Below are positions 11,493-46,223 of a DNA stretch of 64,000 nucleotides, one piece after another. Source of the DNA: Beijerinckiaceae bacterium (GTDB lineage Bacteria; Pseudomonadota; Alphaproteobacteria; Rhizobiales; Beijerinckiaceae). The DNA lies in contig JAIELD010000055.1 of NCBI GenBank assembly GCA_019753285.1, positions 1 to 64,000 on the forward strand, written 5' to 3'. The position numbers were made by a program, and so were the translations under genes. Under the pieces are notes generated by a model, which made no database searches, was not told the origin of the DNA, and saw only the letters and a program-made list of their open reading frames with translations. The stretch's first letter is position 1; each line of letters opens with the position of its first letter.

Positions 11493-11502
11493 GCGCCAGA
11501 CC

Positions 11503-15317: not shown

Positions 15318-15319
15318 CC

Positions 15320-22640: not shown

Positions 22641-22704
22641 GCCAAGGAGTTCTGACGCCAAGGAGTTCTGACGCTAATGAATCCTGACGCCAAGGAGCCG
22701 TCAG
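22641..22704. repeat. four 16-bp tandem units (two perfect, two diverged)
   Basis: gccaaggagttctgac x2, then gctaatgaatcctgac and gccaaggagccgtcag, between convergent genes. Confidence 0.85.
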
Positions 22705-23330: not shown

Positions 23331-23342
23331 CTCGCTTTTCCT

Positions 23343-28616: not shown

Positions 28617-28697
28617 GACCTTCTCGAGCGCTTGTCGCGACCCGGCAATCTATATACGGCTTGGAAGCGCCTGCAAGCACACCAAGCGGAGTGAATC

Positions 28698-30068
28698 GTG
28701 AACACGCGTGACCAAACTATTCATGCGAAACAGGCGCTTCTGCCGGGTGGCTGGCATGGCGACGTTCGGCTCGACGTTTCAGGGGAAGCTCTGATCTCGA
28801 TCGAAACAGGCGCGAAGCCGCAGGCTGGCGATGTGCGCATCGACCTCGCCGTGCCCGGCCTCTGCAATCTTCACAGCCACGCCTTCCAGCGCGCCATGGC
28901 AGGCCTCGCCGAGAGGCGCGGCCCGGGATCCGACAGTTTCTGGAGCTGGCGGGAGGAAATGTACCGCTTTGCGTTGACGATGGACCCGGACGATGTGGAG
29001 GCGGTCGCGGCGCAGCTTTATGTCGAGATGCTGGAGGCAGGCTTCACCCGCGTCGGCGAGTTTCACTATCTGCATCACGACAAGGATGGCGCGCCCTACG
29101 CAAACCTTGCCGAAATGGCCGAGCGGATCGCGTCTGCTTCACGCGCAAGCGGCATCGCGATGACCTTGCTGCCGGTGCTTTACGCTCGCGGCGGCTTCGG
29201 CGGCCAGACTGCAAACGACGGACAGCGGCGCTTTCTTAATTCGCCGGAGCGCTTTCAGAAGCTTTGGCAGGCATCCACCGAAGTCATAGCCCGCCTGCCG
29301 GGCGGCGAGATCGGCGTCGCGCCGCACAGCCTGCGCTCCGTGAAACCGGACGAGTTGCGCCTCGCGATCGAGATCGCCGGCGAGCGCCCGATCCATATCC
29401 ACATCGCCGAGCAGGTGAGGGAGGTGGAGGATTGCATCGCCTGGTCAGGCAGGCGGCCCGTCGAATGGCTGCTGGCGAACGCGAGCGTCGATGAGCGCTG
29501 GTGTCTCATCCACGCCACCCACATGACGCACGCAGAAACGCTGGGCGTCGCAGCATCGGGCGCGGTCGCAGGCCTTTGCCCGCTGACGGAGGCCAATCTC
29601 GGCGATGGCGTCTTCAACGCCGAACCGTTCGTGGCGGCGGGCGGGCGGATCGGGATCGGATCGGATTCCAATATCGAAATCAGCGCGGCGAGCGAATTGA
29701 AGATGCTCGAATATTCGCAGCGCCTCTCGCTGCGGCGGCGAAACGTGATGGCGTCCGCCGCAGGACAATCGACCGGACGCAGCCTGTTCGACGCGGCGCT
29801 TTCCGGCGGGCATCAGGCCCTCGGCTCGGGGCCGGCGGGCCTTCGCGTCGGAGGCGTCGCCGATATCGTGGCGCTCGGCAGATCCTCATCCGCACTGTCC
29901 GCCCTGAGCCCCGACCGCGTGCTGGACGCGTGGATTTTCGCTCCAGGAGCGGTATCTGTCGATCGGGTCTGGGCGCGCGGCGCGCTGCTGGTCGAGAATG
30001 GCCGTCATCATGCACGCGACGCGATCGCCGCGCGGTTCGACCGCACGATGGAACGGCTTCTCGGCTAG
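28698..30068 (+). CDS. hutF: formimidoylglutamate deiminase
   Basis: LCNLHSHAFQRAMAGLAERRGPGSDSFWSWREEMYRF; divergent from hutI. Confidence 0.95.
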   Translation: MNTRDQTIHAKQALLPGGWHGDVRLDVSGEALISIETGAKPQAGDVRIDLAVPGLCNLHSHAFQRAMAGLAERRGPGSDSFWSWREEMYRFALTMDPDDVEAVAAQLYVEMLEAGFTRVGEFHYLHHDKDGAPYANLAEMAERIASASRASGIAMTLLPVLYARGGFGGQTANDGQRRFLNSPERFQKLWQASTEVIARLPGGEIGVAPHSLRSVKPDELRLAIEIAGERPIHIHIAEQVREVEDCIAWSGRRPVEWLLANASVDERWCLIHATHMTHAETLGVAASGAVAGLCPLTEANLGDGVFNAEPFVAAGGRIGIGSDSNIEISAASELKMLEYSQRLSLRRRNVMASAAGQSTGRSLFDAALSGGHQALGSGPAGLRVGGVADIVALGRSSSALSALSPDRVLDAWIFAPGAVSVDRVWARGALLVENGRHHARDAIAARFDRTMERLLG

Positions 30069-30077: not shown

Positions 30078-30941
30078 TCATTCGACCTGATCGATGAGCT
30101 CTCGCACATACCCGCTGAATTGATGCGGCTGGATCGACGCGACTCGTACGAGATCGTCGAAGCGGTTGAGAAAAAGCTGGATATGAGCCGCCGAATTCAG
30201 GACGAGATAGCTCGTGCCGAGGAACATCGCGACGCGCTGATCGCCAAATACCGTGAACGGAACCGAATAGGACGAGGCGGCGTCATAGAGATAGATGCGA
30301 AGCGAGGGATAGAACTCGTCGGCAAGATCGATCATCCGTTGGAACTGCGCCCGCCTCAGGCTTGCCGGGACACTCGACCAGAGGCCGATGCCGCGGGCGA
30401 AATGCAGAAAACTGTCGCGCGAAGTCGCAAGCTCGAGCTGTTGATGCGGCTGGCGCAGCATGGCGAGCCGACGCTGCACGGCCTCGATCGGGCTCAATCC
30501 GGCGTTCTCGAACGCTGCGCGATACTCGTGGCGCAGCACATCCTCGCTCTTGAAGAGGTCCGGCACGCCCACCGGAACGGAGCAGATCCGCAAGCCCTGC
30601 GCCGATCGCAGCCAGCCGAGAAACGTATCGTTGGCCGGCGTGTTGCCATAGGGCTCGACCTTCATCACCGCTTCGATCAGCTCGGAACCGACCTCCTCCC
30701 TTTGGCTCAAGCCAAGGAGCCAATCGACCGAGACGTTCGCGGTGCGCGCGATCATCGCCAGCGTTTCCGCGCGCGGCAGGCGCGGCATGGAGCCGGTGAG
30801 AAGTTGCGAGAGAGTCGAACGGTCGAGCTTCGCCTGCCGGGCAAAGGCCGCATAGGTCAGGCCGCTGCGCGCGAGGAGCTGATTGACGCGCTCGCGGAAG
30901 ACATCGTGGGAAACGGGATGGGGCATCGCTCGATCATCCAA
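30078..30941 (-). CDS. XRE-family helix-turn-helix transcriptional regulator with uncharacterised C-terminal domain
   Basis: N-terminal HTH GLTYAAFARQAKLDRSTLSQLLTG; about 200-aa C-terminal region. Confidence 0.85.
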   Translation of the reverse strand: MDDRAMPHPVSHDVFRERVNQLLARSGLTYAAFARQAKLDRSTLSQLLTGSMPRLPRAETLAMIARTANVSVDWLLGLSQREEVGSELIEAVMKVEPYGNTPANDTFLGWLRSAQGLRICSVPVGVPDLFKSEDVLRHEYRAAFENAGLSPIEAVQRRLAMLRQPHQQLELATSRDSFLHFARGIGLWSSVPASLRRAQFQRMIDLADEFYPSLRIYLYDAASSYSVPFTVFGDQRVAMFLGTSYLVLNSAAHIQLFLNRFDDLVRVASIQPHQFSGYVRELIDQVE

Positions 30942-30955
30942 GATTGTTCTCTAAA

Positions 30956-31035: not shown

Positions 31036-31104
31036 ACTCTGATGGCCGGAATCGACTGTTGAACCAGGCGATTCGAGCCGGTTTTCACGTGGAGACGAGA
31101 CAGC

Positions 31105-32325
31105 ATGTCGGCCCATTCGATGCCGGAAGATGTCCGCCGCGAATGGATGCGGACCTTGCTCTCGGCCCAGAAGCCGAGACATTCGCTGTTGCAACCGCTG
31201 TATTGCGACGAAACGTTGTTCAACCTCGAAATGGAAACGCTGATCGAGGCCCAGTGGCTGTTCGCCGGGCTCGAATGCGAGATTGCCACGCCCGGCCAGT
31301 TCCTGACCGTGACGGTCGGCCGGTCGTCGATCATCGTCTGCCGCAACCGCGCAGGCGAGTTGCGAGCCTTCTACAATTCGTGCCGGCATCGCGGCTCGCA
31401 GATCTGCGACGCGGAGAAAGGCAAGCGGGCCAGCTTCGTCTGCCCATACCATCAATGGAGCTACGATCTCGACGGCAAGCTGCTGCGGGCGCCCAACATG
31501 CCGGACGCTTTCGATGCGTCAGGCTACGGCCTCAAGGCCGTGCATATCAGCTCGGCAGCCGGCATCGTCTTCATCTGCCTTGCCGAAACACCGCCGGACT
31601 TCGCAGCTTTTCAGACCGCGCTCGAACCCGCAGTCCTGCCTCACAAGCTCCAATCCGCCAAGGTCGTGCATGAAATCACGCTCGAGGAACGGGCCAACTG
31701 GAAGCTCGTCTGGGAGAATGCGCGCGAATGCGATCATTGTGCGGCGGGCCACCCGGAGTTGATGCGGACGCTCCAGCTTTTCAACTTCGAAAACCCCTGG
31801 GACGACCCGTATATCAGCGCGTTCTGGCGGCGCTGCGAGGCCTCGGGCCTGCCCAGCATCACCAAGGACGGCAACGGCTTCCGCGTCGGCCGCGTGCCGT
31901 TTCAGCCGGGGCAGCTATCCATCACCATGGATGGCCAGCCGGCCGTGCGGAGACGGCTTGGAGACTGGCCTGACCAGGACATTGGCTCGCTGCGCTGGGC
32001 CAAATATCCGGGTGTCTTCAGCCACATCCACGCCGATTACGCCATTTTCGTCCAGATCATGCCGGTCGCGCCGGAGCTCACCAGTGTCACATGCAAATGG
32101 GTCGTGCATGAGGATGCCGTGGAAGGCATCGATTTCGATCTCGAACGTCTCGTCGAGGTCTGGCGCGAGACCAACGTCCAGGATCTCGTCTTCTGCGAAC
32201 GCAACCAGAAGGGCGTCAATTCGAAAGGCTATCAGCCGGGCCCCTATGCCGAGCCGTCGGAATTCGGCGTCTGGACGTTCATCGACTGGTATCGCAGCGA
32301 GATGGCCAAGGTCGTTGCAGCATGA
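31105..32325 (+). CDS. Rieske non-heme iron oxygenase, alpha subunit
   Basis: CRHRGSQICDAEKGKRASFVCPYHQWSYDLDG Rieske motif; iron-site segment ANWKLVWENARECDHCAAGHPEL with Glu at the bridging position. Confidence 0.93.
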   Translation: MSAHSMPEDVRREWMRTLLSAQKPRHSLLQPLYCDETLFNLEMETLIEAQWLFAGLECEIATPGQFLTVTVGRSSIIVCRNRAGELRAFYNSCRHRGSQICDAEKGKRASFVCPYHQWSYDLDGKLLRAPNMPDAFDASGYGLKAVHISSAAGIVFICLAETPPDFAAFQTALEPAVLPHKLQSAKVVHEITLEERANWKLVWENARECDHCAAGHPELMRTLQLFNFENPWDDPYISAFWRRCEASGLPSITKDGNGFRVGRVPFQPGQLSITMDGQPAVRRRLGDWPDQDIGSLRWAKYPGVFSHIHADYAIFVQIMPVAPELTSVTCKWVVHEDAVEGIDFDLERLVEVWRETNVQDLVFCERNQKGVNSKGYQPGPYAEPSEFGVWTFIDWYRSEMAKVVAA

Positions 32326-33320
32326 ACCAAGGCGGCATCGCGCGGCTCGCTGGCGCGGAATGGCCGACGATCGGCCTGCTCGTCGTCATTTATACCTCGT
32401 TTCTGTCTTTGACGCTCTGGCACGACGCCATTCCGCTGGTGCTCTGGTTGCCGCTCGCCGCCTGGACGGGCGCGTGGTGGAGCTCCGTGCAGCACGAGAT
32501 CGTCCATGGCCATCCGACGCGGCATCGCTGGCTGAACACCGCGCTCGCAACGCCGCCGATCTGGCTCTGGCTGCCGTTCGAGCGGTATCGGCAAAGCCAT
32601 CTCATCCACCATCGCGATGACCACCTCACCGACCCGCTCGACGATCCGGAAACGCGCTACTGGACGCGGGATGGCTGGCGCGAGCTCGGGCCTGTCGGGC
32701 GCTTTCTGGTCGATGTGCAATCGACGCTCGTCGGTCGCCTGAGCATCGGCCCTTTATGGTCGATCGCGATGTTCGCGCATGGCGAGGCGCAGCGCCTCGT
32801 CGCAAATGAAGGACGCTGCCGACGCATCTGGGCATGGCATTCGGTGTTCGTGGTGCTGCTGCTCGGCTGGGTGGTCGGCATCTGCGCCATGCCGCTCTGG
32901 CAGTACCTCATCGGCTTCGTCTATGGCGGCACGGCGCTCGCGCTCATTCGTTCCTTCGCCGAGCACAAGGCATGCGAGGATGTGGCGGAGCGGACTGCGA
33001 TCGTCGAGCGGAGCCCCCTGTTCAGCCTGCTGTTCCTCAACAACAATCTGCACGTCGTCCATCACCGCTGGCCGACCTTGCCCTGGTATCGCCTTGCTGC
33101 GCTCTACAGGGCGCATCGAGACGAACTGCTCGAAGCGAATGGCGGCCTCGTCTATCAAGGCTATCTCGACGTCTTCAGACGCTACCTGTTCCGGCGGTAC
33201 GATCATCCCGTCCATCCGGCCGAGCGCGTCGATCCCGCGCCGATCCGTCAAGCCGGTGTATCGTATCCGGCGGCAAGCGCCTCTTTGTCCCAATCGAGCG
33301 TCGTCGAGAACGCCGCCTGA
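32322..33320 (+). CDS. fatty acid desaturase-like membrane di-iron protein
   Basis: Three His boxes: HEIVHGHPTRH, SHLIHHRDDH, NNNLHVVHHRW; ATGA overlap with the Rieske gene. Confidence 0.88.
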   Translation: MNQGGIARLAGAEWPTIGLLVVIYTSFLSLTLWHDAIPLVLWLPLAAWTGAWWSSVQHEIVHGHPTRHRWLNTALATPPIWLWLPFERYRQSHLIHHRDDHLTDPLDDPETRYWTRDGWRELGPVGRFLVDVQSTLVGRLSIGPLWSIAMFAHGEAQRLVANEGRCRRIWAWHSVFVVLLLGWVVGICAMPLWQYLIGFVYGGTALALIRSFAEHKACEDVAERTAIVERSPLFSLLFLNNNLHVVHHRWPTLPWYRLAALYRAHRDELLEANGGLVYQGYLDVFRRYLFRRYDHPVHPAERVDPAPIRQAGVSYPAASASLSQSSVVENAA

Positions 33321-34054
33321 TCCACCGCGGCAAACCCATTGAGCAGGAGCGCGTCGGCAAGCGGAGGAAACCAGCTCTGCCCTGACGCCGCTGCAAACGC
33401 CTGCTTCAAGCGAGCGACCTCGTCTTGAGGCATCTGAGGCGATGCGACGAAGGCCGGCATTGGCGCGACATCGGTCGAGGCCAGCACGCGGATGCCTTGC
33501 GTCAGCTCCGGCTTGTGCTTCGCGATCAGCATGTGCCAATAGGCGTCGAGCGGCCCGACATCGATGCTGCCATCGAGCACACTGTCAAGGATCCTGCGGG
33601 CCGTGACGAGGTCGCCAGCCATCGAGCCAAAAAGGTTTTGCCGGTCGGCGGACCGATACTGCAGCAGGTGGTGACGAAAGGCGTTGAAGCCTGAATGCGA
33701 GTGCCGCACCGTCCACCCCGCCCGGCATCCGAACGTGTCCTCCAGCGTCTGATAGGGCGCATCCTTCCGGACGATGAGATCCGAGCGATAGACCGCCCGC
33801 CCCTGAGCCCAGTCGGCGCGCGGGATCGGCGCGGCGATCGGCACGACATCGGCGATGCGGAGCGCGATCGGATAGCCGCACATGAACACGCAGCCAAGAT
33901 CGGGCCGGCGCCACAAATCTTCCAGCGGCTGCGGCGCGGGATAGGCGACGTAGTCGAGCGTGATCCCCGCATCCGCGGTGACGTGAGCGAGCAGCGCCTT
34001 CCACGCGTCTTCCGCCTCAGGCGTTACAGCGTACATGCGGGCGTTCATGATCAT
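33248..34054 (-). CDS. PhnD-like periplasmic-binding-fold protein without recognisable signal peptide
   Basis: LGCVFMCGYPIALRIA..YRSDLIVRKDAPYQTLEDTFGCRAGWTVRHSHSGFNAFRHHLL..; start MIMNARMYAVTP has no signal sequence. Confidence 0.7.
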   Translation of the reverse strand: MIMNARMYAVTPEAEDAWKALLAHVTADAGITLDYVAYPAPQPLEDLWRRPDLGCVFMCGYPIALRIADVVPIAAPIPRADWAQGRAVYRSDLIVRKDAPYQTLEDTFGCRAGWTVRHSHSGFNAFRHHLLQYRSADRQNLFGSMAGDLVTARRILDSVLDGSIDVGPLDAYWHMLIAKHKPELTQGIRVLASTDVAPMPAFVASPQMPQDEVARLKQAFAAASGQSWFPPLADALLLNGFAAVDQAAFSTTLDWDKEALAAGYDTPA

Positions 34055-34092
34055 CGCGGCCGAGCCTTCGAGCCTGATCCGAAGCGCTGCAT

Positions 34093-35112
34093 CTAGGCGA
34101 ACCGCAGCCGCTGGCCGATGCCGAGCCGCTCGCCCTTTTTGAGCATGGCGTGGCCAAGCGCGATGTCGGACAATGACAGCCCGCGATGCCAAAAGAGGAT
34201 GGTCTCGTCATCCGACTGGCGTCCGGGTTTGAGGCCGGCGACGATCTCACCCATTTCGGCGTGCAGGGTCGCTTCGCTGAGCTTGCCGGCCTCGACATGC
34301 GCACGCAGGCTGCCGAACTTGCCGCCCTTGCATTGCCCCCAATCGTCGACGACGAGCTTCGACATGATATCCGTCAGCGAAAGCTCGACCGCACTCATGG
34401 TGCCATACGGCACGACGAAAGCCCCTGGCTTGATCCATTCGGTCTTCAGCATCGGGGTTGGCTCGTTGAGACGGGACGCCTCGACAATGATGTCGGCGTC
34501 CGCCACGCAGCTATGCCAGTCGTCGACGGCTTTCACCGGTTTGCCGAGATCCCGGCTCAACTTGTCGGCAAAGGCGTTCTGGCTTTCGGGACGGCGCGAG
34601 TGAACCCGGATCTCATCGAAGTCGAACAGCCTGTCGAGCAGGCGCACGTTCCAGTAGGCCGTGCCGCGCGCGCCGATATGGCCCAGAACTTTCGACGACT
34701 TGCGCGCGAGGTACTTCGCGCCGATCGCGGTAACCGCCCCGGTCCGCATGTCCGTGATGCCCGACGCATCGAGAATTGCGATCGGCCTGCCGTCGAAGCG
34801 GTTGAACAGCGTCAGCACCGCAAGCTCCGACGGCAGGTTCTTCTTGTAGTTGTCGACGAAGTCGCCGACCACTTTCACGCCCGCCGCGTCGATCTCGCCG
34901 CCAAGCGAGCCGCGCAGCACGTTGAAATGACCGCGCGCCACGCCCGGCTCGAGATGCACGCGCGGCTCGATGACCGACTCGCCCCTGCCCTGCGCCGCCA
35001 GCGAGCCTTCGATCGCATCGAGGATTTCATCATCGGTCAATTCCAGCGCCTCGACATCGAGGCGGTTGAAGTAGGAGATGTAGACAGGCGGCATGGCGTC
35101 GGGCGCGGACAT
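34093..35112 (-). CDS. ornithine cyclodeaminase / mu-crystallin family protein
   Basis: LTVLTLFNRFDGRPIAILDASGITDMRTGAVTAIGAKYLARKSSKVLGHIGARGTAYWNVRLL pattern of OCD family. Confidence 0.88.
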   Translation of the reverse strand: MSAPDAMPPVYISYFNRLDVEALELTDDEILDAIEGSLAAQGRGESVIEPRVHLEPGVARGHFNVLRGSLGGEIDAAGVKVVGDFVDNYKKNLPSELAVLTLFNRFDGRPIAILDASGITDMRTGAVTAIGAKYLARKSSKVLGHIGARGTAYWNVRLLDRLFDFDEIRVHSRRPESQNAFADKLSRDLGKPVKAVDDWHSCVADADIIVEASRLNEPTPMLKTEWIKPGAFVVPYGTMSAVELSLTDIMSKLVVDDWGQCKGGKFGSLRAHVEAGKLSEATLHAEMGEIVAGLKPGRQSDDETILFWHRGLSLSDIALGHAMLKKGERLGIGQRLRFA

Positions 35113-35132: not shown

Positions 35133-36317
35133 TCAGGCGAGTGGCAAGCGGCGGTAGATGCCCGGCCGATCGGGATCACGGAACTTGTCATAGGGACCAT
35201 CGCGCAGGAACAGCGCGTGGCAATGGGCGAGCTTGTCCCTCGAAAGCGTCATGCCTATCCCCGGCGCGTCCGGCACGGCGACGACGTTGTCCCTTGGACG
35301 GAACGGCCCTTCCTCTATGACGTCGAAGGGCTGCATGTGGAACAGCGATTGCGAAGGCTCGCGAATATGTGAATGAGCTGCCGCCAGATGCAGGTAGACC
35401 GCGCTCGCAATGCCTGAATCGCCGGAGTAGCACCAGAAATCGACGCCGAGCTGCTCGCAGGCGCCGATGAACTTCAACGCGCGTCCGATGCCGCCATGCA
35501 CATTGACGTCCGTGCAGAATGCATCGGGAACGCCGAGCGCGGCGGCATGGCGAAGGTTCGGCGTGTGCGCGGAAAAGGCGATCGACGTGTGCCGCCGAAG
35601 GCGAGCCATGTCCTCGAACGTAGCGACAGGGTCTTCCCAGCAGCGGATGTCGAGCGGCTCCAGCCGCCGCGCGATCCGCCGCGCCTCCGTCAGGGAATAG
35701 GCCTTGTTGGAGTCGATCCGCAAAACGGCCGAAGGGCCGAAATGCTCGCGCAACAGCTCGACGGTCCGGATGGAGGGTTCGGGATCGGCGGTCGAAAGCT
35801 TGCCCTCGAACATCGTCGTGCCGAACCGCTCGTGCTGGCCGATGCAATAGTCGAGAACGGCCTCCGGGGTCGCCTCGCCGCCAATGCCTTCTTGGCGCTC
35901 ACGAAAGGCGAAGTAGTCCGTGAATGCGATCGCCTTTCGGTGCGCCCCACCGAAGAGGGCATGGAGCGGCCTGCCCCAGGCCTTGCCTCGAATGTCCCAG
36001 AGCGCCATCTCGATCGCGCCGAACGCCCGGACCGAGGCAAAATCGATATCGGTGTAGACGCCGCGCCATGATGGCAGGCAGAGCTCCTCGCAGCCGGCGA
36101 TGTCGATGGGGTCGCGGCCGATCAGCTTCGGCGCGAAACCATTCTCAATTGTCGCGACGTTGGCGGGGGACGGCCCTTCGCCGAGGCCGACGAGACCGTC
36201 AGAGGTTTCCACCTCGACGATCGTCTTCGAAAAGCCCGCCAGTGAGCCATACGACCACAGATAAGGCGCTTCGAGCGGGATGTTGACGGGCGTCGCCCTG
36301 ATGGCGGTGATCTTCAT
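35133..36317 (-). CDS. enolase superfamily (mandelate racemase/muconate lactonizing enzyme-like)
   Basis: MKITAIRATPVNIPLEAPYLWSYGSLAGFSKTIVEVETSDGLVGLGEG; RIDSNKAYSL, CWEDPVATFEDM. Start at ATG 36317. Confidence 0.87.
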   Translation of the reverse strand: MKITAIRATPVNIPLEAPYLWSYGSLAGFSKTIVEVETSDGLVGLGEGPSPANVATIENGFAPKLIGRDPIDIAGCEELCLPSWRGVYTDIDFASVRAFGAIEMALWDIRGKAWGRPLHALFGGAHRKAIAFTDYFAFRERQEGIGGEATPEAVLDYCIGQHERFGTTMFEGKLSTADPEPSIRTVELLREHFGPSAVLRIDSNKAYSLTEARRIARRLEPLDIRCWEDPVATFEDMARLRRHTSIAFSAHTPNLRHAAALGVPDAFCTDVNVHGGIGRALKFIGACEQLGVDFWCYSGDSGIASAVYLHLAAAHSHIREPSQSLFHMQPFDVIEEGPFRPRDNVVAVPDAPGIGMTLSRDKLAHCHALFLRDGPYDKFRDPDRPGIYRRLPLA

Positions 36318-36442
36318 GCCGATATCCTGAGATCGAGCACGGCCAGAGCGGCATCCGAAATCTCGACCCCATCGGCCTCCGCCCCTTCGCCCCGCAGGCG
36401 GTGGGCGACGCTCGACTGCAATTCGGCCAGCGGCAGTCTCAT
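36314..36442 (-). CDS. 42-aa small ORF, ATGA-coupled at both ends
   Basis: Translates MRLPLAELQSSVAHRLRGEGAEADGVEISDAALAVLDLRISA*; start overlaps the ABC ATPase stop, stop overlaps the enolase-family start. Confidence 0.5.
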   Translation of the reverse strand: MRLPLAELQSSVAHRLRGEGAEADGVEISDAALAVLDLRISA

Positions 36443-37422
36443 GGGACGGGCCGCGCGCGATCGAGGGAAAACGGAAAATGGCAACGCACGGAGCGCGCGT
36501 CGTCGAGAGCCGCGAGCGCGGGCATCTCGGCCGAACAGCGTGGCTGGGCCACCGGGCAGCGCGTGTGGAAGCGGCAGCCCGATGGCGGGTTGACGACGCT
36601 CGGGATCTCGCCAGTGAGGACGATGCGCTCTCTCCGGTTGCGCGGATCGACCGCCGGATTGGTCGACAGGAGAGCAGCGGCGTAAGGGTGCGCCGGGGCA
36701 TCGAACAGCGCCCGCGTCGGAGCCACCTCCACGATCTGGCCGAGATACATGACCGCCGTGCGCATGGTGACACGGCGGATGACGTTGAGGTTGTGGCTCA
36801 CCAGAAGATAGGTCAGAGCGAACTCCTGCTGGAGATCGAGCATCAGGTTGAGGAGTTCGCCCTGAACCGAGACGTCCAGCCCTGCGGTCGGTTCGTCCGC
36901 CACGATGATCTCAGGCTGCATCACCAGAGCGCGGGCGACGCCGACGCGGCGCGCCTGACCGCCCGAGATCTGGTGCGGGAACTTCTGCACGACATCGGCC
37001 GGAAGGCCGAGGCGGCGCAAAATCGCCTCCAGCCGCTCGAGCGATGGCCCGCGCGGCAGGCGATGGATGGCAATCGGCTCGGCGAGCGAGCGCCCGATCG
37101 TCATGCGCGGCGACAGCGAGGCGACCGCATCCTGAAGCAGCATCTGCGTCCGCCGGCGAAAGGCGAGCGGATCGTCGCGCAACTGCCGCCCGACATCCTC
37201 GCCGGCGATCTCGACTGTGCCGCCCGTCGGCGCGGTCAGGCCGATCACGACACGGCAAAGCGTCGTCTTGCCGGAACCGGATTCGCCGACGAGTCCGAGC
37301 ACCTCGCCCTTGTCCAGCGTCAGCGTCACATCGTCGAGCGCACGCACGCCGCCCTTGAACACGACGCTGACCGCTTGCAGGCTGACAAGGGGCGAGGCGG
37401 TATCGAAGCGGGCGATCGTCAT
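36439..37422 (-). CDS. oligopeptide/dipeptide-type ABC transporter ATP-binding protein (OppF/DppF-like)
   Basis: [36 protein letters not shown]-terminal oligopeptide signature region. Confidence 0.92.
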   Translation of the reverse strand: MTIARFDTASPLVSLQAVSVVFKGGVRALDDVTLTLDKGEVLGLVGESGSGKTTLCRVVIGLTAPTGGTVEIAGEDVGRQLRDDPLAFRRRTQMLLQDAVASLSPRMTIGRSLAEPIAIHRLPRGPSLERLEAILRRLGLPADVVQKFPHQISGGQARRVGVARALVMQPEIIVADEPTAGLDVSVQGELLNLMLDLQQEFALTYLLVSHNLNVIRRVTMRTAVMYLGQIVEVAPTRALFDAPAHPYAAALLSTNPAVDPRNRRERIVLTGEIPSVVNPPSGCRFHTRCPVAQPRCSAEMPALAALDDARSVRCHFPFSLDRARPVP

Positions 37423-38396
37423 GCGATCTCCTCGAACCGGATGCATGCGGCCCGGCCGCTGTCGGAGGGCCGGAGCGCGGGCACCGTGACGCGGCAGGCC
37501 TCGACGACATGGGGACAGCGCGGGGCGAAGATGCAGCCCGTCATCGGCGCGACAGGATCCTGCACCTCGCCTGGAATGGAGACGAGCCGGCCCTCCGCAT
37601 CATCCTCGATCTCGCAGGCCAGCAGGGCGCGTGTGTAGGGATGGCGCGGTCGCACGAGCACATCGGCGACGAGGCCGCTCTCGACGACCGTGCCGCCATA
37701 CATCACGCAAAGATCGTCGCAGAGCTCCGCGACGAGACCGAGATGGTGCGAAATGAAAACGATGGAGCCCGACAACTCTTGACGCAGCGATTTCAGCAAG
37801 TCGACGATCTGCGCTTCGACCGTCGCATCGAGCGCCGTGGTCGGCTCATCGGCGATCAGGAGATCCGGGCGCACGAGCAGCGCCATTGCGATCATCACCC
37901 GTTGCCGCATGCCGCCGGAAAGCTGATGCGGATAGGCCTCCAGCCTCAATCGCGCATCCGCAATGCCGACGCTGGTCAATGCCGCCTCGGCCTGCCGCAG
38001 CGCTTCCTTGCGCGGCAGGCCCGGCTCACGGCGGCGGATGACATCGACGAGGTGCGTCGCGACGGTGAAAACCGGATTGAGCGCCGTCATGGGGTCCTGG
38101 AAAATCTTGGCGATCCTCCTGCCGCGATAGGACTGCACCTCGCTCGGACGCAGCTTCAGCAGATCGACGCCGTCGAAGACGATTTCGCCGCTGACGCCGG
38201 AGACGTTGGCGGGAAGGAAGCTCAGCATCGTCTGCGCGAGGCTCGATTTGCCGGAGCCGGACTCGCCGACGATGCCAAGAATGCGGCCACGGCCGATCTC
38301 GAGGCTGATGCCGCGCAGAATATGCGCGACGCCGCGATTGGTCGATGCTTCGAGCTTGAGATCGCGGATCGAGACGAGCGGATGCACCATGCTCAA
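37419..38396 (-). CDS. oligopeptide/dipeptide-type ABC transporter ATP-binding protein (OppD/DppD-like)
   Basis: [55 protein letters not shown]. Confidence 0.93.
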
Positions 38397-39247
38397 TGCC
38401 TCGGCCTGATGCGCGGATCGACCGCATCGCGCAGCGCCTCGCCAAACAGCGTGAAGCCAAGCGTCGCGAAGGCGAGCGCGAGGCTGGCGACGACCACGGG
38501 TATCCAGCTATCGGTCAGGAACTGGTAGCCGTCCTGCACCAGCGTGCCCCAGCTTGCGAGCGGAGGACGCACCCCAAGCCCGAGAAAGGACAGCCCCGCC
38601 TCGATCGTGATGACAACAGGAATGTCCATCGAGGCCAGCACCAGCAGCGTGCCCATGATGTTCGGCAGGATGTGCATGACGATGATGCGAGAGCCTGACG
38701 CGCCGAGGATGCGCTCCGCTTCGAGGAACGGCGCGTTCTTGAGCGTGAGCACCTGCGCCCGCGCGACGCGACCGAAGTGCGGCGTCAGCGTGATGGCGAC
38801 GATGATGATGACGATCGACATCGACGGCCCGAACACCGACACGATCGCCAGCGCGAGGACAAGGCTCGGAAACGACGAGATCACGTCGAACAGAATGAGG
38901 ATGACGCTTTCGGCCCGCGTCGAGAGGAAGGCCGCAAGAATGCCGAGGATCGTGCCGAAGCTCAGCGCAAGGATGATCGAGGTGAGCGCGACGAACATCG
39001 CGATCGTCGAGCCATGCACCAGACGCGAATAGAGATCGCGCCCGAGATGGTCGGTGCCGAGCCAATGGGCCGCGGAGGGCGGCGCGAACCGGTTGAGCAC
39101 GTCGAGCTGGTCGGGATCGTGCGTGGCGACGATCGGCGCGAAGACAGCCATCGCGATGATGATGAGCACGATGGCAAAACCGGTCGCGCCGATGAACGTG
39201 CCGCAGACCTTGCGCAGGATGCCGGCCAGGGCTGCCAGCGCCCTCAT
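38393..39247 (-). CDS. ABC transporter permease (OppC/DppC-like)
   Basis: APIVATHDPDQLDVLNRFAPPSAAHWLGTDHLGRDLYSRLVHG motif; start at ATG 39247. Confidence 0.92.
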   Translation of the reverse strand: MRALAALAGILRKVCGTFIGATGFAIVLIIIAMAVFAPIVATHDPDQLDVLNRFAPPSAAHWLGTDHLGRDLYSRLVHGSTIAMFVALTSIILALSFGTILGILAAFLSTRAESVILILFDVISSFPSLVLALAIVSVFGPSMSIVIIIVAITLTPHFGRVARAQVLTLKNAPFLEAERILGASGSRIIVMHILPNIMGTLLVLASMDIPVVITIEAGLSFLGLGVRPPLASWGTLVQDGYQFLTDSWIPVVVASLALAFATLGFTLFGEALRDAVDPRIRPRH

Positions 39248-40206
39248 ACCGGAGATCCGCCAGCGCCGTCGCGCCGGATGCGGGGATCGAGCGCCGAATA
39301 GGACAGATCGACCACGAGGTTTATCAGCACGAACAGCACGACGACAACCAGCACCGCGCCCTGCACGACGGGGAAATTCCGTTCGGATATCGCGCCGTAG
39401 ATCAGGCGCCCCAGCCCCGGCCGCGCGAAGACGATCTCCACGAAGACGGCGTTGCCGAGGAGCCGGCCAAGGCCGAGCCCCAGGACGGCGATGGTCGGGA
39501 TGCAGGCGTTCTTCAACGCGTATTTGTAGGTAACCATCCGCTCGGAAAGGCCATAGGCGCGCGAGGTGCGGATATAAGGCTCGTTCAGCACCTCGAGCAT
39601 CGAGGTGCGCACAAGCCGGGCAATGAAGCCGATCCATGTGGCGGCGATGGAGAGCGTGGGCAGGATGAGCCGGCGCGCCGCGTCCCAGAAATCACCGCTG
39701 CGCCCGGCGCCGAGCACCGGCAACCAGTCGAGCCAGATCGAGAAGATCAGCAGCAGGAAGATCGCGATCACGAAGCTCGGCACGGCGATGAAGGCGACGG
39801 ACACGAAGGCGAGCACATTGTCGAGTAATGACCCGCGATGGGTCGCAGCATAGATACCGAGCGGAACGCCGGTGACGACCGCGAGCAGGATCGCCGAAAA
39901 GGTGAGGATGAGCGTGTCCGGCAGGACGTTGAGGACGAGGCTCCACACGCTGCGACCAGACACGACGTCGACGCCGAGATTGCCGCTGAGCACGTTGGCG
40001 AAAAAACGCCAGAGGCGAACATGGATCGGCTGGTCGAGACCCATCTCGCTGACGAAGCGCTTGACGAGTTCGGGCGAGGCCTGCGGGCCGAGAAGCGTCA
40101 CCGCAGGGTCACCCGGCACCACAGCCGTCAGCAGGAACAGGAGCAGCATCGCGCCGAACACGATCAGGACTGTGGTGACGAGACGGCTGAAAAAATACCT
40201 GAGCAT
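39244..40206 (-). CDS. ABC transporter permease (OppB/DppB-like)
   Basis: MLRYFFSRLVTTVLIVFGAMLLLFLLTAVVPGDPAVTLLG; ATGA overlap downstream. Confidence 0.92.
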   Translation of the reverse strand: MLRYFFSRLVTTVLIVFGAMLLLFLLTAVVPGDPAVTLLGPQASPELVKRFVSEMGLDQPIHVRLWRFFANVLSGNLGVDVVSGRSVWSLVLNVLPDTLILTFSAILLAVVTGVPLGIYAATHRGSLLDNVLAFVSVAFIAVPSFVIAIFLLLIFSIWLDWLPVLGAGRSGDFWDAARRLILPTLSIAATWIGFIARLVRTSMLEVLNEPYIRTSRAYGLSERMVTYKYALKNACIPTIAVLGLGLGRLLGNAVFVEIVFARPGLGRLIYGAISERNFPVVQGAVLVVVVLFVLINLVVDLSYSALDPRIRRDGAGGSPV

Positions 40207-40246
40207 CTCGTCCCTGATCACCTGTCGGCCGCGCCGGCGCGGCCGG

Positions 40247-41806
40247 TCAGGCGCCTACCGCGAAGCTGTCATACTGCCAGTCGAGCCAGCCGGGCACAGC
40301 CGCCGGCTTGATCCAGGGGCGGTGCACGAGCACGTTGACCTCGTTGGTGAGCCAGACGAAGGCGGCGCTCTTGTCCATCAGCTTCTGCGCGGCGATGACA
40401 TCCTCGATGCGCTTGTCCTTGTCGATCTCGCCGGCTGCCTTGGTGAACAGCGCGTCATAGTCGGGGTTTGCCCAGCGCTCCCAGTTCCAGTCGCCGACCT
40501 GGCCGGAGACGAACCATTGCATGATGAAGTTGGGATCGTGCTTGCCGTTGAAGCGCAGGATGAAGAGATCGAGGTTCTTGCCCGTATCGCCCTTGCCTGA
40601 ACTCCAGTAGGTGCCGCCTTCCTGCGCATCGACCTCGAGCGTGATGCCGACCTCGGCGAGCAGTGCGCGCGCAACAAGCGCCATGTTCTGGTAGGCCGGC
40701 TGGTTGAGGATGAGCAGCTTGAGCTTGAGGTTGCTCGCCCCTGCGTCGGCAAGCAGCTTCTTCGCCTCGGCGACATTGCGCTTGTAGACGGGTGCGTCCT
40801 TCCAGTGGCCGAGGATCTGCGGCGGAAGCAGCGTATTGAGCCTTGGCGCCTTGCCGTTGTAGCCAGCGGCCAGCATCTGGTCGACATCGAGCGCAAGGCG
40901 GATCGCCTGGCGGACGCGAATGTCCTTCAGGCCCTCTTTTTCGGTGTTCATGCCAAGCCAGACATAGGCGATGCTCGGCTGCTCGGTGACGACGAGCCCG
41001 GCGACCGAACGCAGAGGGTCGGCAGCCTGCGGCGACAGCACGGCAAAATCGATTTCGCCGGAGCGCAAGGCAAGATCGGTGGTGCGCGGATCGCCGATAT
41101 AGCGGATCGCGATCTCCTCATAGGCCGGCTTGGGGCCGGCATAGCCTTCGTGACGCTTCAGGAGCGCGCCACGCTGGCGCTCGAGATTGGTGACGATGTA
41201 GGGGCCTGAGCCGACGGGCTTCACCGAATGCTCGCCGCCGAGCTTCTCGACAGCCTTCTTCGAGACGATGCAGCCCGAGACATCGCCGATCGCGATATCG
41301 AAGAGATTGGCGCGCGGCTTGGTCAGGATGATGCGGCCGGTCAGCGGTCCTGTGACCTCGACCTTGTCGAGGTTGACCCAGTCTCCCTTGTAGGTCGAAG
41401 GCTTCGCGTCGCCGACGGGCGGCAGGCCGATGCGCTCGAACGAGAACTTCACATCTTCGGCGGTCATCTCGCCATAGCCGTCCGAGAAAATCTGGCCGGG
41501 CTTCAGCCTGAATTCGACGACGGTCGGCGAGACTTGCTTCACCTCCGCTGCCGCGTCGAGTTCGAGTTCAGCCGAATTCGGCTTCTGCTTCATGAGCCGC
41601 TGGAACACGCTGCGGCAGACATTGCCGTCCCAGGCGCCGGTTCGGTGCGCGGGGTCGAGATTGGTGAGGTCGCGATCGATGCGCACGGCGATGGTCTTGC
41701 GCGGACCCGCCTGCGCGAACGCGCCCTGCCCCGATGCCAGCGCGCCAAGCAAGCCGGCTGTCGCGGCCCCGGCCATGATTTCACGGCGGTTGATCGTGTT
41801 CGTCAT
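40247..41806 (-). CDS. ABC transporter substrate-binding protein, family 5
   Basis: RREIMAG twin-arginine-type signal; FRLKPGQIFSDGYGEMTAEDVKFSFERI typical of family 5 SBPs. Start ATG 41806. Confidence 0.92.
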   Translation of the reverse strand: MTNTINRREIMAGAATAGLLGALASGQGAFAQAGPRKTIAVRIDRDLTNLDPAHRTGAWDGNVCRSVFQRLMKQKPNSAELELDAAAEVKQVSPTVVEFRLKPGQIFSDGYGEMTAEDVKFSFERIGLPPVGDAKPSTYKGDWVNLDKVEVTGPLTGRIILTKPRANLFDIAIGDVSGCIVSKKAVEKLGGEHSVKPVGSGPYIVTNLERQRGALLKRHEGYAGPKPAYEEIAIRYIGDPRTTDLALRSGEIDFAVLSPQAADPLRSVAGLVVTEQPSIAYVWLGMNTEKEGLKDIRVRQAIRLALDVDQMLAAGYNGKAPRLNTLLPPQILGHWKDAPVYKRNVAEAKKLLADAGASNLKLKLLILNQPAYQNMALVARALLAEVGITLEVDAQEGGTYWSSGKGDTGKNLDLFILRFNGKHDPNFIMQWFVSGQVGDWNWERWANPDYDALFTKAAGEIDKDKRIEDVIAAQKLMDKSAAFVWLTNEVNVLVHRPWIKPAAVPGWLDWQYDSFAVGA

Positions 41807-42055
41807 GACGGTCTCCTCATCCGGCCCCACCATGACGTGACGGGCGCATTGGCAGTGGTCGAAACCCTGGTCGCCGACCTCGGCCTCGCTCGTTCCATCG
41901 AACTCGCACGCATCGAAAACCAACGTCAGTCACATTGCAAGCAAATATCGTGCGCCGCTCGAAGCACAGATGCAAGGATGACGGAGACGTGAACAACCGG
42001 CGGCAACGAACGAAAAAGACTCGCTAAATTTCAAGCCGCCGCAACGCGCCCGCGC

Positions 42056-43588
42056 TCAACTTGCCGGCACGATCGGCAAGCCGACCGCCGCGATCGACGC
42101 CAATATGTCAGATGTCACCTTTCGATCATCGAGCACATCGGCGACAGCCATTACGTCGAGCCCCGTCTCGCGGTCCGTCTCCAGCATCGGGAGCACGTCT
42201 CGAATGGACCGGTGCAGCGCGCCGGATGGCGATGACAGCCGCAGCCCCTCGCGAAGATCGATGGCCTGTGCCGCCACCGTCGCCTCGACCGCGACCAGCA
42301 GCTTGAACGAAACAAGTTGTTCGGCAAGTTTGCGCACCGCAAGCAGCGTCAGTGGAGCGCAATCCTCGACGGTGTCCGAGACGGGCAAGGCGTCGAGCGT
42401 CGCGGGAGCTGCGGCATGCCTGATCTCGGCATGGAGTCCTGCGGTCGTCTTCTGCATCGGCACGTATCCGGCGGACGCGCCTCCGATTGGCGAGAGGTAT
42501 TTCGGCAGGCCCGAGAGGGTGGGGTTCATGAGCTTCATGATGCGGTGCGCGCCAGCCGCAGCGAGATGCGCGAGCGAAATCCGCAGCGTGTCGATGGCGA
42601 GCGCCAGCGATTGCGTCTGGAAGTTCGGCGCGGAAAGCATGACCTCGTCCTCGATCAGAACCAGCGGGGTGTCGGTCGCGCCGTTGATCTCGACCTCGAC
42701 CTCCTGGCGGGCCTGCGCGAAAGCGCCGAAGGTCGAGCCGAACAGCGGAGCGAGGCAGCGGAACGACACCGCATCCTGGATTTTGCCGGGGTTTTCGTAG
42801 ATGGAACTTTCAGCCAGCAAGGCTCTGAACATCGCGCCCGCCTCGCGCTGGAAGACCGCCGGCCGAGCCGCGTTGATCCTGGCGTCGAAAATGGTGGGGT
42901 TCGCGCCATAGCCCTGATAGGAGAGCGCTGCCGCCGCGGCCGCGCAGGCCAGCGTATCGCCAAGATCGACCAGCGTCATGGCGACATGGCCGATGCTGGG
43001 AGCCGAACTGTTGCACATTGCGAGGCCGTCCTTCGGCTCCAGCTTCGCGGGCGAAAGACCGGCGCGCCGCAACGCCTCGCCACCCGGCAGCCGCTCGCCA
43101 TCGAACCAGGCTTCGGCACGGCCGATGAGCACGCCGCCGATATGGGCGGAGAGGCCGAGATCGGCGGCGCTGATCGTGCCCCGCGCCGGAATGACCGGCG
43201 TGAGGCCCCTGTTGAACATCTCTATAAGGAGCGCGAGCGTCGCGCGCGAAATGCCGGCCCCGCCCGACCCGATGCCGATGATGCGCGCCAAGAGCGCGGC
43301 GCGGCACAGCGGCTCCGGCAGCGGCTCACCGACACCGATGTTGCGACCGCGGATGAGCTGCTCCTGAAAGGCGCGGATATCCTCCGGGCTGATCCGGTAG
43401 CCAAGATTGCCGCCGAGGCCAGTATTGAGCCCATAAATGGGCTGTTCGCCCTCTGCGAATGCATCGACGATCTTTCGCGCCGCATCGACGCGGCCATACG
43501 CCTTTTCGGAAAGCCCGATCGGATCAGAAGCATTCACGATCGCGGCGAGGTCGAAAATGGTGAGCGGCGTATCGCCGAGCAGCTTCAT
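42056..43588 (-). CDS. histidine/aromatic ammonia-lyase homologue lacking the MIO Ala-Ser-Gly triad
   Basis: HAL fold motifs YGLNTGLGGNLGYRI, GVGEPLPEPLCRAALL, but GTISAADLGLSAH in place of [14 protein letters not shown]. Confidence 0.88.
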   Translation of the reverse strand: MKLLGDTPLTIFDLAAIVNASDPIGLSEKAYGRVDAARKIVDAFAEGEQPIYGLNTGLGGNLGYRISPEDIRAFQEQLIRGRNIGVGEPLPEPLCRAALLARIIGIGSGGAGISRATLALLIEMFNRGLTPVIPARGTISAADLGLSAHIGGVLIGRAEAWFDGERLPGGEALRRAGLSPAKLEPKDGLAMCNSSAPSIGHVAMTLVDLGDTLACAAAAAALSYQGYGANPTIFDARINAARPAVFQREAGAMFRALLAESSIYENPGKIQDAVSFRCLAPLFGSTFGAFAQARQEVEVEINGATDTPLVLIEDEVMLSAPNFQTQSLALAIDTLRISLAHLAAAGAHRIMKLMNPTLSGLPKYLSPIGGASAGYVPMQKTTAGLHAEIRHAAAPATLDALPVSDTVEDCAPLTLLAVRKLAEQLVSFKLLVAVEATVAAQAIDLREGLRLSSPSGALHRSIRDVLPMLETDRETGLDVMAVADVLDDRKVTSDILASIAAVGLPIVPAS

Positions 43589-43809
43589 GGCGTTTCTCCG
43601 GCTTCAACGCTTGAGACGGGATGGACGGAAGGTGCGCGAGCATGATCTTGCGGCGTTCGGCGACCGAGCGACGACATGATCGCGGCGCGCTGCGCGTCCG
43701 ACATCCGGAGCCAGCCGCCGATTTCGGCCGCCGTGCGTCCGCAGCCGAGGCAAAGCCCGCTTACCGGATCGAGGATGCAGACCTTGCTGCAGGGCGATGG
43801 GATGCTCAC
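43585..43809 (-). CDS. DUF1289-family small Cys-rich protein
   Basis: PSPCSKVCILDPVSGLCLGCGRTAAEIGGWLRMSDAQRAAIM; GTG start overlaps the upstream stop (GTGA) and its stop overlaps the HAL-like ATG. Confidence 0.85.
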   Translation of the reverse strand: MSIPSPCSKVCILDPVSGLCLGCGRTAAEIGGWLRMSDAQRAAIMSSLGRRTPQDHARAPSVHPVSSVEAGETP

Positions 43810-46223
43810 GCGCGCAGCCTCGATCCTTCTGGATCGTGCAGGGGCCGGGCGGTGACCACCGCCGGGCATTCCTGTCCGAGGATGTCGATCGAGAGCGCCT
43901 CGCCATCGCCTGCGAGTTCAGCCGGCACATATCCGACCGCGAGGCTCTTGCCGACCCAGTGGCCGAACGCGCCCGAAGTGACGTTGCCCACCGGCTTTCC
44001 GTCCTTCAGAACCACCTCGTAGCCCACCACATCGGCATGCGGCGCCTCGACGGCCATCGTGACGAACCGCTTCCTGGGACCATGCTCGCGCTCCTTGAGG
44101 ACAGCGGCGCGGCCGACGAAATCGACGTTCTTGGTGAAATCGACGAACTGGTCGAGCCCCGTTTCGCCCGGCGTATAATCGGGCCGGAAATCCTTGTTGA
44201 ACGAGCCGTAATTCTTCTCCAGCCGGAGCGAGGAGATCGCGCGCCCGCCATAATGGGCGAGGCCGAGATCAGCGCCCGCTGCCAGCAGATCGTCATGAAG
44301 CTGGACCTGATAGTCGGGCGTCACCCAGATCTCGTAGCCGAGTTCGCCAGTGAAACCGCAGCGCTGCACGATGGCAGGCGACAGGCCGACCGCGCCCTCG
44401 CGCACCGCGAAGAACTTGAAGCCTTCCGCCGAGACGTCGAACTCCGCGACACGCTCCAGGAGCTTCCGGGCATGCGGACCCGAGAGAGCGAAGCCGGCCA
44501 GCGTCGAACAGGCGCTGCGGACGAAAACGTCATCCGGCGGGTTGCTCTGCCAGAACCAGCGCATGTGAAAGGCTTCGGCGAAACCAGACCCGACGATGAG
44601 ATAGCGATCTTCGGCAAGGCAGGCGATCGACAGGTCGCCCATGATGCGGCCGCGGGCGTTCAGCATCGGCGCGATCGCCATGCGGCCGGGCTTCGGAATG
44701 CGGCAGGCAAAGACACGGTCCAGCCAGGCGCGCGCGCCTTTTCCGCTGACCTCGTATTTCGCATAGTTCGTCGTCTCGTAGATGCCGACGGCCGTGCGCA
44801 CGGCGTGGCATTCGTTGCGCACATGCTCGAAGGCGTTCGAGCGGCGATAGGTCGGATTTTCGCTGCGCTCGACGCCCGGCGGTGCGAACCACAGCGCGCT
44901 TTCCAGGCCGAAATTGGCGCCCCAGACCGCGCCTCGCTCGCTCAGCCGGTCATAGACCGGACTGCGGCGCAGCGGCCTTGCGGCCGTCATCTCCTCGTTC
45001 GGATAAAGCAGCCGGAACCGCCGGCGATAATTCTCCTGCACCTTGATCGAGGTGTATTTCGGCGTCGCGAACACGCCATAGCGGGCGCTGTCCATCGCGA
45101 GCACGTCCTGTCCGGGGTCGTTCTCGGCCATCCAGCGCGACAGCACGAGCCCAATGCCGCCACCCTGGCTGAAGCCCGCCATGACGGCGCAAGCGTTCCA
45201 GTAATTCGGCAGGCCTTTCACCGGGCCGACCAGCGGGTTGCCGTCCGGCGAGAAAGTGAACGGCCCGTTGACGACCTTCTTGATGCCGGTCTCGGCAAGC
45301 GCGGGAAAATGCGCGAAGCCACGCTCCAGTTCCGGAGATATGCGATCGAGATCGTTCGGCAGAAGTTGCCCGTGGAAATCGTCCGGCGTCGTCTCCGGCG
45401 ACCAGACGCGGCAATTCTGCTCGTAGGTGCCGAGCAGGACGCCCTCTCCCTCCTGCCGCAGGTAGATTTCGCCGCTGAAGTCGGAGGTGTTGATGATTTC
45501 CCGCTCGAGGCCTTTCAACTGCGGCACCGGCTCGGTGACGATATACATGTGCTCCATCGCGAGCACCGGCAGATCGAGGCCGACGAGCTTGCCGACTTCG
45601 CGCGCCCAGAGCCCGCCCGCATTGACCACATGCTCGGCATGGATCACGCCCTTGTCGGTGACGACATCCCAGCTATGGTCAGGCCGCTGATTGAGCGCCG
45701 TGACCTTTGTGAAGCGGTGCACCTCCGCGCCCTTCGCCTTCGCGCCGGCCACATAGGCCTGGCAGACGAGCCATGGGTCGACATAGCCGCCATCCTCGCG
45801 CCACAGCGCACCCTTGAAATGCTCCTCCGCGATGAGGACGTTGCGGCGTTTCGCCTCCGAAACCGGGATCATCTCGGTGTCCATGCCGAGATAGCGGGCG
45901 CGCGAATGGATCAAGCGCAGAAAGTCCATCTCGCCGTCGCTGCTGGCGAGATAGATGCCGCCATTATGGTGGATGCCGCAGGACTGGCCGGTTACCGATT
46001 CAAGCTCTCGGTAGAGATCGAACGTGTACTTCTGCAGCTTCGAGACGTTGGCATCGGAGTTGAGGGTCGTGACGCCACCGGCTGCATGCCAGGTCGAGCC
46101 CGATGTGATCTCGTTCTTGTCGAGGAGCACGAGATCGCTCCAGCCGATCTTGGCGAGATGGTAGAGGATAGAGACGCCGACGACGCCTCCGCCTATCACC
46201 ACGGCGCGGGCATGAGCTTTCAT
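43806..46223 (-). CDS. FAD-dependent oxidoreductase with GcvT/aminomethyltransferase domain (dimethylglycine/sarcosine dehydrogenase-like)
   Basis: ARAVVIGGGVVGVSILYHLAKIGWSDLVLLDKNEITSGSTWHAAGG; C-terminal GcvT-like GLSPAIVQRCGFTGELGYEIWV..GLAHYGGRAISSLRLEKNY. Confidence 0.93.
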   Translation of the reverse strand: MKAHARAVVIGGGVVGVSILYHLAKIGWSDLVLLDKNEITSGSTWHAAGGVTTLNSDANVSKLQKYTFDLYRELESVTGQSCGIHHNGGIYLASSDGEMDFLRLIHSRARYLGMDTEMIPVSEAKRRNVLIAEEHFKGALWREDGGYVDPWLVCQAYVAGAKAKGAEVHRFTKVTALNQRPDHSWDVVTDKGVIHAEHVVNAGGLWAREVGKLVGLDLPVLAMEHMYIVTEPVPQLKGLEREIINTSDFSGEIYLRQEGEGVLLGTYEQNCRVWSPETTPDDFHGQLLPNDLDRISPELERGFAHFPALAETGIKKVVNGPFTFSPDGNPLVGPVKGLPNYWNACAVMAGFSQGGGIGLVLSRWMAENDPGQDVLAMDSARYGVFATPKYTSIKVQENYRRRFRLLYPNEEMTAARPLRRSPVYDRLSERGAVWGANFGLESALWFAPPGVERSENPTYRRSNAFEHVRNECHAVRTAVGIYETTNYAKYEVSGKGARAWLDRVFACRIPKPGRMAIAPMLNARGRIMGDLSIACLAEDRYLIVGSGFAEAFHMRWFWQSNPPDDVFVRSACSTLAGFALSGPHARKLLERVAEFDVSAEGFKFFAVREGAVGLSPAIVQRCGFTGELGYEIWVTPDYQVQLHDDLLAAGADLGLAHYGGRAISSLRLEKNYGSFNKDFRPDYTPGETGLDQFVDFTKNVDFVGRAAVLKEREHGPRKRFVTMAVEAPHADVVGYEVVLKDGKPVGNVTSGAFGHWVGKSLAVGYVPAELAGDGEALSIDILGQECPAVVTARPLHDPEGSRLRA

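Follow-up and report, generated by a model that had tools for sequence, protein, structure and literature searches.

Can a protein with the fold of histidine ammonia-lyase (HAL) catalyze an elimination when the residues that form its cofactor are absent, and if so, what kind of substrate would it act on? The question is raised by the window analyzed here, a 64,000-nucleotide stretch of contig JAIELD010000055.1 from a Beijerinckiaceae bacterium, which encodes its own HutH (25852–27390, minus strand) with an intact Ala-Ser-Gly triad, and a second HAL-fold protein, P0001, without it. In HAL, Arg283 binds the carboxylate and Tyr53 is the base, while the amino group is activated by MIO. If MIO is missing, the ammonium stays unactivated and leaves poorly.

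In the alignment to the window HutH and relatives, the cofactor loop of P0001 reads VIPARGTISA-ADLGLSAH, where the triad is missing and a net deletion of one residue is present. Two further segments deviate from HutH: SHCAGVGEP corresponds to GRNIGVGEP, with His83 aligned with Arg82, and QDPYCLRC corresponds to QDAVSFRC, with Tyr280 aligned with Val274. Tyr52, Arg277, and Glu408-Asp409 (the xxED segment) are retained. The initial annotation had noted the lost triad next to a hut copy that keeps it, the shortened loop, the His and Tyr substitutions, and the preserved Arg and Glu, all of which the alignment bears out, and P0001 is confirmed as an intact, conserved HAL-fold protein without a MIO triad. 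Against the HutH equivalog TIGR01225, it scores 360.7 bits, which is under the NCBIfam cut-off of 539. The same annotation regarded the protein as a functional, neofunctionalized paralogue of the hut copy. The intact and conserved lyase-fold protein remains, but an origin as a recent paralogue of the local hutH is ruled out by an identity of 33% and by the tree described below, where P0001 belongs to a large and deeply separated family.

Table 1 Coordinates of P0001, its key residues, and neighboring genes in the window
Feature	Position	Strand	Remarks
MIO-less HAL-fold lyase (P0001)	42056..43588	-	510 aa; putative lyase; ATG at 43588, stop at 42056, 0 internal stops
Cofactor loop, residues 134–149, PARGTISAADLGLSAH	43142..43189	-	place of ASG/MIO in HAL; from alignment
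Arg82 codon	43343..43345	-	aligned with HAL His83 (ring-selectivity position); from alignment
Lys380 codon (MQKT)	42449..42451	-	signature of MIO-less lyases including ergothionase
Dimethylglycine-dehydrogenase-like (DMGDH-like) flavoprotein (DAO + FAO_M + GCV_T)	43806..46223	-	from domains
Family-5 solute-binding protein, DppA type	40247..41923	-	PF00496; start uncertain
ABC importer permease, DppB type	39244..40221	-	
ABC importer permease, DppC type	38393..39637	-	true start downstream of ORF start
ABC importer ATPase, DppD type	37419..38396	-	
ABC importer ATPase, DppF type	36439..37446	-	conserved in operon
Mandelate racemase/muconate lactonizing (enolase superfamily) protein	35133..36317	-	start inferred
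OCD/mu-crystallin family protein	34093..35112	-	PF02423; co-conserved partner
PhnD-like protein	33248..34192	-	PF12974; likely start near 34054
Fatty-acid-desaturase-family membrane protein	32322..33320	+	co-conserved
Rieske oxygenase near glycine betaine monooxygenase GbcA	31105..32325	+	442 bits, under the 670 cut-off
XRE-type regulator	30078..30941	-	also beside the lyase in loci L045, L048, L052, and L148
hut cluster: hutD-like, hutU, hutG, hutH (intact ASG), hutI, hutF	22701..30068		adjoins the module

Many MIO-less relatives, mostly of 36–60% identity, were returned by all four homology searches (whole genomes of 100 relatives, 398 genomes order-wide, a set with a single genome for each species, and plasmids by tblastn), and public records often name them hutH or histidine ammonia-lyase. 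Among 155 collected sequences, the MIO triad is present in 27 and missing in 128. A regular-expression test for a Ser/Cys/Thr-Gly-type triad flagged five of the 128, but none of these, and none of the MIO-less proteins as a whole (0/128), has Ala-Ser-Gly where the cofactor would form: in four, this site reads only GTG or ASD, and the TATGS of the remaining one (L072) is located upstream of the loop. The groups also differ at position 380, which is Lys in 127 of the 128 MIO-less and in 0 of the 27 MIO-bearing proteins (Val in 26, Tyr in 1), and at position 274, which is Leu, Ile, or Val in 128/128 and Tyr in 27/27, respectively. Position 82 is Arg in 117 and His in 11 MIO-less proteins, and it is His in members of the ergothionase clade as well as in each of the 27 MIO proteins. 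Tyr52, Arg277, Glu408, and Asp143 are invariant in the MIO-less (128/128) as well as in the MIO-bearing group. P0001 displays the complete signature, i.e., a Lys in QKT, a Leu/Ile/Val residue for Tyr280, and the kept Tyr, Arg, and Glu, which was derived from this alignment and not from the ergothionase paper; the initial annotation was silent on Lys380. A single-genome oddity or a decayed gene is ruled out, since 128 proteins keep the catalytic frame. As a separate observation, the MIO-less lyase of Sinorhizobium meliloti pSymA (L146, 8923–10563) has Ala in place of the otherwise constant Lys380, and among the genes near its own are those of an ABC importer and one with the annotation DMSP lyase.

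Ergothionase has been reported to lack MIO (PMC13405746), and the initial annotation had pointed to this enzyme as a relative of HAL. By profile and fold it is the nearest solved relative of P0001: the family profile has its best match in Treponema denticola ergothionase (PDB code 6S7J, 446.7 bits), with the best HAL next (407.3 bits), and in a Foldseek search against the PDB, the AlphaFold2 model of P0001 (mean pLDDT 89.5, pTM 0.92, with pLDDT below 50 only at residues 54–59 and in the cofactor loop at 139–141) matches 6S7J first, with TM scores of 0.90–0.94, marginally ahead of HAL. In a tree of 73 proteins, all MIO-less rows, including T. denticola ergothionase, are separated from the true HALs by a single branch (SH-aLRT 100), and the clustering with a MIO-forming lyase that had been named as refuting was not found. 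P0001 is nevertheless placed outside the ergothionase clade, and it carries Arg82 where ergothionase has His. Ergothionase groups with proteins of Polaromonas, S. meliloti, and Paracoccus saliphilus, and P0001 is nested in another group, of 46 proteins (support 97), separate from a clade that holds one characterized ergothionase sequence. Since the tree has SH-aLRT support only, was midpoint-rooted for drawing, and contains no PAL/TAL sequences, it is compatible with a single loss of MIO without proving one. An ergothionase-clade lyase of Paraburkholderia (L166, 12076–13719) begins with a signal-peptide-like stretch (MRRAFRYVVGIAAVLASFSCQA), which suggests, from the N-terminus as read, that it may be periplasmic; the related lyases of Polaromonas and S. 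meliloti also have longer N-termini.

Ergothionase can work without MIO because trimethylamine is a good leaving group, and it thereby already shows that a MIO-less HAL fold is workable. The initial annotation had proposed that P0001 may likewise eliminate a better leaving group (trimethylamine or a methylated amine) from an N-methylated amino acid, an interpretation that finds support in part. As the Tyr and Arg are retained in P0001 and the ergothionase Lys is present, its active site is most economically read as eliminating an N-alkylated amine. In the reaction that we infer, Arg277 would hold the substrate carboxylate and Tyr52 would take the β-proton, and the α-amine, quaternary or tertiary and most simply trimethylamine, would depart with no help from an electrophilic cofactor, being a good leaving group from the outset. 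Lys380, Glu408, and Arg82 would bind or polarize the remainder of the substrate, and the product would be an α,β-unsaturated (acrylate-type) acid. The substrate is probably an N-α-methylated or otherwise N-substituted arylalanine brought in by the adjacent ABC transporter, and might be derived from histidine, in which case a urocanate-like product could enter the neighboring hut pathway. Judged from the alignment, the exchange of His for Arg suggests that the side chain or ring of the substrate bears a different group, which may be anionic. The parts of this proposal differ in strength. We consider it very likely that P0001 is a MIO-independent lyase, and likely that the leaving group is an N-alkylated amine; for trimethylamine in particular, the chances seem evenly divided, an imidazole-derived substrate falls slightly short of that, and ergothioneine itself is an improbable substrate. 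Taken together, P0001 is probably a MIO-independent C–N lyase of the ergothionase-type HAL-fold branch, which expels a pre-activated amine from an N-alkylated, perhaps histidine-derived amino acid.

The gene neighborhood bears on this proposal in several ways. The window operon, on the minus strand, begins at 46223 and extends to 33248. The order lyase, DppABCDF, (enolase-superfamily gene), OCD, PhnD-like gene recurs in L037, L150–L154, and L156, often with a DMGDH-like gene upstream in close relatives (74–81% identical proteins upstream of the lyase in L037, L038, L150–L152, and L156). The enolase-superfamily protein has counterparts of 67–79% identity in the same operon in L150, L154, and L167, and also in L048 and L052. 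Between the importer and this gene, an Ldh-family oxidoreductase is encoded in L048 (1000–1998, identified by eye) and in L167 (5348–6343, annotated). The XRE regulator, the GbcA-like Rieske oxygenase, and the desaturase-family protein (30078–33320) travel with the lyase in several genomes, and Rieske homologues of 60–61% identity are found just upstream of it in L045, L048, and L052. As for the PhnD-like protein, its relatives adjoin the same genes and share an operon with OCD and lyase in L032, L033, L145, L165, and L169–L171; no signal peptide is seen on reading the N-termini of these proteins, so this periplasmic-binding-fold protein is probably cytoplasmic, and it may be an enzyme or a sensor. 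In Rhizobium, Phyllobacterium, and many relatives, lyase and OCD are accompanied by FMN monooxygenases and a quaternary-amine importer of the ProX type; a binding protein of the ProX/EgtUC type is encoded in sister-clade loci, and the OCD-lyase pair of Comamonadaceae and a Roseovarius is found without the ProX-type and monooxygenase companions.

This quaternary-amine context (ProX/EgtUC-type proteins, GbcA-like Rieske oxygenase, DMGDH-like protein) counts for the elimination of an N-alkylated amine, and the DMGDH-like and Rieske enzymes may recover the methyl groups. Genes for a CoA transferase, an SDR, and a MaoC protein adjoin the lyase in L033 and L034, an acrylate context that counts for a lyase. 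Other observations count against the proposal, namely Arg82 in place of the ergothionase His together with the separate clade, the window importer, which is of the family-5 peptide/opine type and not of the betaine type, and the TMAO demethylase, for which no match over the cut-off was obtained in the P0001 genome (82% complete).

The strongest clue is the co-conserved OCD-family gene with the surrounding operon, on which the initial annotation was also silent. The OCD gene adjoins the lyase gene or shares its operon in most loci, and the encoded proteins are mostly 66–88% identical, compared with 43–60% for the lyases in the same loci. Among 398 genomes of the order, strong matches to the lyase occur in 26 and strong matches to OCD also in 26, with 20 genomes having both; OCD is thus carried by 20/26 genomes with the lyase versus 6/372 without it (Fisher p ~2e-23, uncorrected for phylogeny). 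It is also present in 16 of 17 genomes tested via their loci, most of which were picked for having no OCD within the locus. In an alignment of 77 OCD orthologues with archaeal alanine dehydrogenase (PDB code 1OMO), YGTM stands where 1OMO reads IGAD, the Asp of which we take to be the catalytic residue of the family. The usual catalytic Asp is consequently missing from the partner, and its reaction would be expected to differ from those of classical OCD and alanine dehydrogenase. The subfamily has conserved PYGTMSA and WHRGLSLSDIALG motifs, and the window protein scores under every NCBIfam cut-off. We envisage that this near-obligate OCD protein and the PhnD-like protein act as partners of P0001 in a pathway; if the pathway were simply one of a trimethylamine lyase, however, it is not obvious what a near-constant OCD partner would do, and in this respect it counts against our proposal. 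In L060, a single cluster encodes two different MIO-less lyases (9956–11500 and 18107–19678), OCD, and two binding proteins of the DppA type, which suggests two substrates sharing one OCD.

A link to histidine is indicated by the hut cluster next to the module, which is found in the same order in genome G014 (L148). In P. saliphilus, the gene immediately after hutU encodes a lyase of the ergothionase clade, and OCD, PhnD, and hutC are located at the other end of the hut cluster. The order in Paraburkholderia PGU19 is OCD, hutU (74% identical to the window hutU), lyase; a Comamonadaceae plasmid has OCD and PhnD within a hut operon with a MIO-bearing HutH, and the hutC repressor gene precedes the lyase in R. 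johnstonii and Martelella (hutC is found by the lyase in L033 and L171). These cases count for a histidine-derived substrate. As a general rule, hut adjacency is rejected, since it concerns a minority of loci: hutU is found within ~10 kb of the module in only 2/80 genome_contigs loci, which weighs against the proposal, and the adjacency is consequently kept as a trend and as supporting evidence only. Elsewhere in the window, at 6921–17343 on the plus strand, a branched-chain-type ABC importer is followed by hydantoinase/oxoprolinase-like subunits (11365–15317), an isochorismatase-family protein, and a flavoprotein, a gene content that, as read from the translations, may represent an operon for hydantoin or lactam catabolism not far from the hut cluster.

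Other explanations have to be weighed against an N-alkylated-amine lyase. That P0001 is a MIO-dependent ammonia-lyase after all can practically be discarded; a by-eye alignment could misplace Ser140 and the stretch from Thr138 to Asp143, but no Ala-Ser-Gly triad occurs elsewhere in the loop, where it was looked for, the loops of the relatives read GSIGA-GDL or GSIGA-ADL without a Ser-Gly triad, and the MIO-less group forms a separate branch, all of which already contradict this reading. A dead or repurposed HAL homologue, serving as pseudo-enzyme, regulator, or binding protein, would account for the loss of the triad, His83, and Tyr280. We find this very unlikely considering that the rest of the catalytic frame does not vary among the 128 proteins, that the operon with transporter and enzymes is conserved, and that ergothionase shows a MIO-less active site to be workable.

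A closer call concerns the substrate. Fold, lost triad, and Lys are common to P0001 and ergothionase, and a YeiH-type exporter gene adjoins the lyase of some relatives, as would suit a strict ergothionase, i.e., an ergothioneine trimethylamine-lyase. Alternatively, ergothioneine sulfonate might be the substrate, since Arg82 could pair with a sulfonate; an ergothioneine-sulfonate pathway has been reported from Agrobacterium radiobacter (cited in PMC13405746), which counts in its favor. Both variants are nevertheless unlikely, because the P0001 clade stands apart from T. denticola ergothionase and its proteobacterial relatives, and because no second, thiourocanate-hydratase-like HutU is encoded beside the lyase. 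Second HutU paralogues of 51–54% identity do occur on other contigs (G347:C76, G446:C53, G333:C35, and G435:C13), and are candidate thiourocanate hydratases by sequence. The P0001 genome has no egtD match, which speaks only against ergothioneine synthesis in that genome. Somewhat less unlikely is a C–N lyase that expels an amino-acid-like amine from an opine- or aminopolycarboxylate-like substrate, after which the OCD protein would process the amine, with the lyase varying with the other half of the substrate. The far better conservation of OCD than of the co-occurring lyase, the importer type, the NtaA-family monooxygenases in sister loci, and the enolase-superfamily protein in the operon would agree with such a pathway. 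Against it, the OCD subfamily is without the alanine dehydrogenase Asp, making classical amino-acid dehydrogenase or cyclodeaminase chemistry doubtful, and the sister loci have betaine-type transporters. We retain the elimination of an N-alkylated amine as the preferred reading, in which P0001 probably acts on a compound from plants or soil and removes an amine that methylation has already activated well.

Literature searches for the lyase-OCD pair and for hypaphorine or hercynine degradation, covering open-access papers, gave nothing relevant, and that literature appears to contain no description of the P0001 clade, of its partner, or of its substrate. We tentatively suggest that the clade is an undescribed but widespread family of MIO-independent amine lyases with a distinct OCD partner and often a cytoplasmic PhnD-like protein, degrading N-alkylated amino acids that would be new as a bacterial nutrient and are probably betaines derived from histidine, originating from plants, fungi, or soil, and that the OCD subfamily has a new activity. 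Since the HAL cofactor cannot form in their products, the pathway annotation of many genes named hutH is wrong, and a loop without Ser-Gly, a Lys in QKT, and Leu/Ile/Val for Tyr280 provide a simple means to split the groups. The conserved partner gene gives a handle on how bacteria associated with plants and soil may catabolize N-alkylated amino acids, and this type of route is possibly a source of environmental trimethylamine.

Compared with known systems, P0001 has in common with HutH (TIGR01225; Pseudomonas putida HAL, PDB code 1GKM, and the window HutH) the fold and the equivalents of Tyr52, Arg277, Glu408, and Asp143, but differs by the absence of ASG/MIO, His83, and Tyr280, by the additional Lys380, and by its score under the HutH cut-off. 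It shares the MIO-less branch with proteins annotated as hutH or aromatic amino acid lyases in Rhizobium, Mesorhizobium, Phyllobacterium, Bosea, Acidisoma, Ancylobacter, Comamonadaceae, and others, which similarly have an OCD-family gene adjoining or elsewhere in the genome; Rhizobium and many relatives use ProX-type transporters and NtaA-family monooxygenases, whereas DppABCDF, DMGDH-like, and Rieske proteins characterize the window type. The OCD partner is by sequence a member of the OCD/mu-crystallin family, like 1OMO, SbnB, and Δ1-pyrroline-2-carboxylate reductase, but constitutes a distinct subfamily with YGTM for IGAD. The closest comparison is with T. denticola ergothionase (PDB codes 6S7J and 6S7Q), which has the HAL fold, a missing triad, the same one-residue shortening of the loop (SSIGEGD in ergothionase), the Lys380 equivalent (IQKT), the LSFRC motif, and the equivalents of Tyr, Arg, and Glu. 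The two proteins are only 29% identical over the structural alignment and belong to separate clades, and the His that ergothionase has at the position of Arg82 may be the defining residue of a strict ergothionase.
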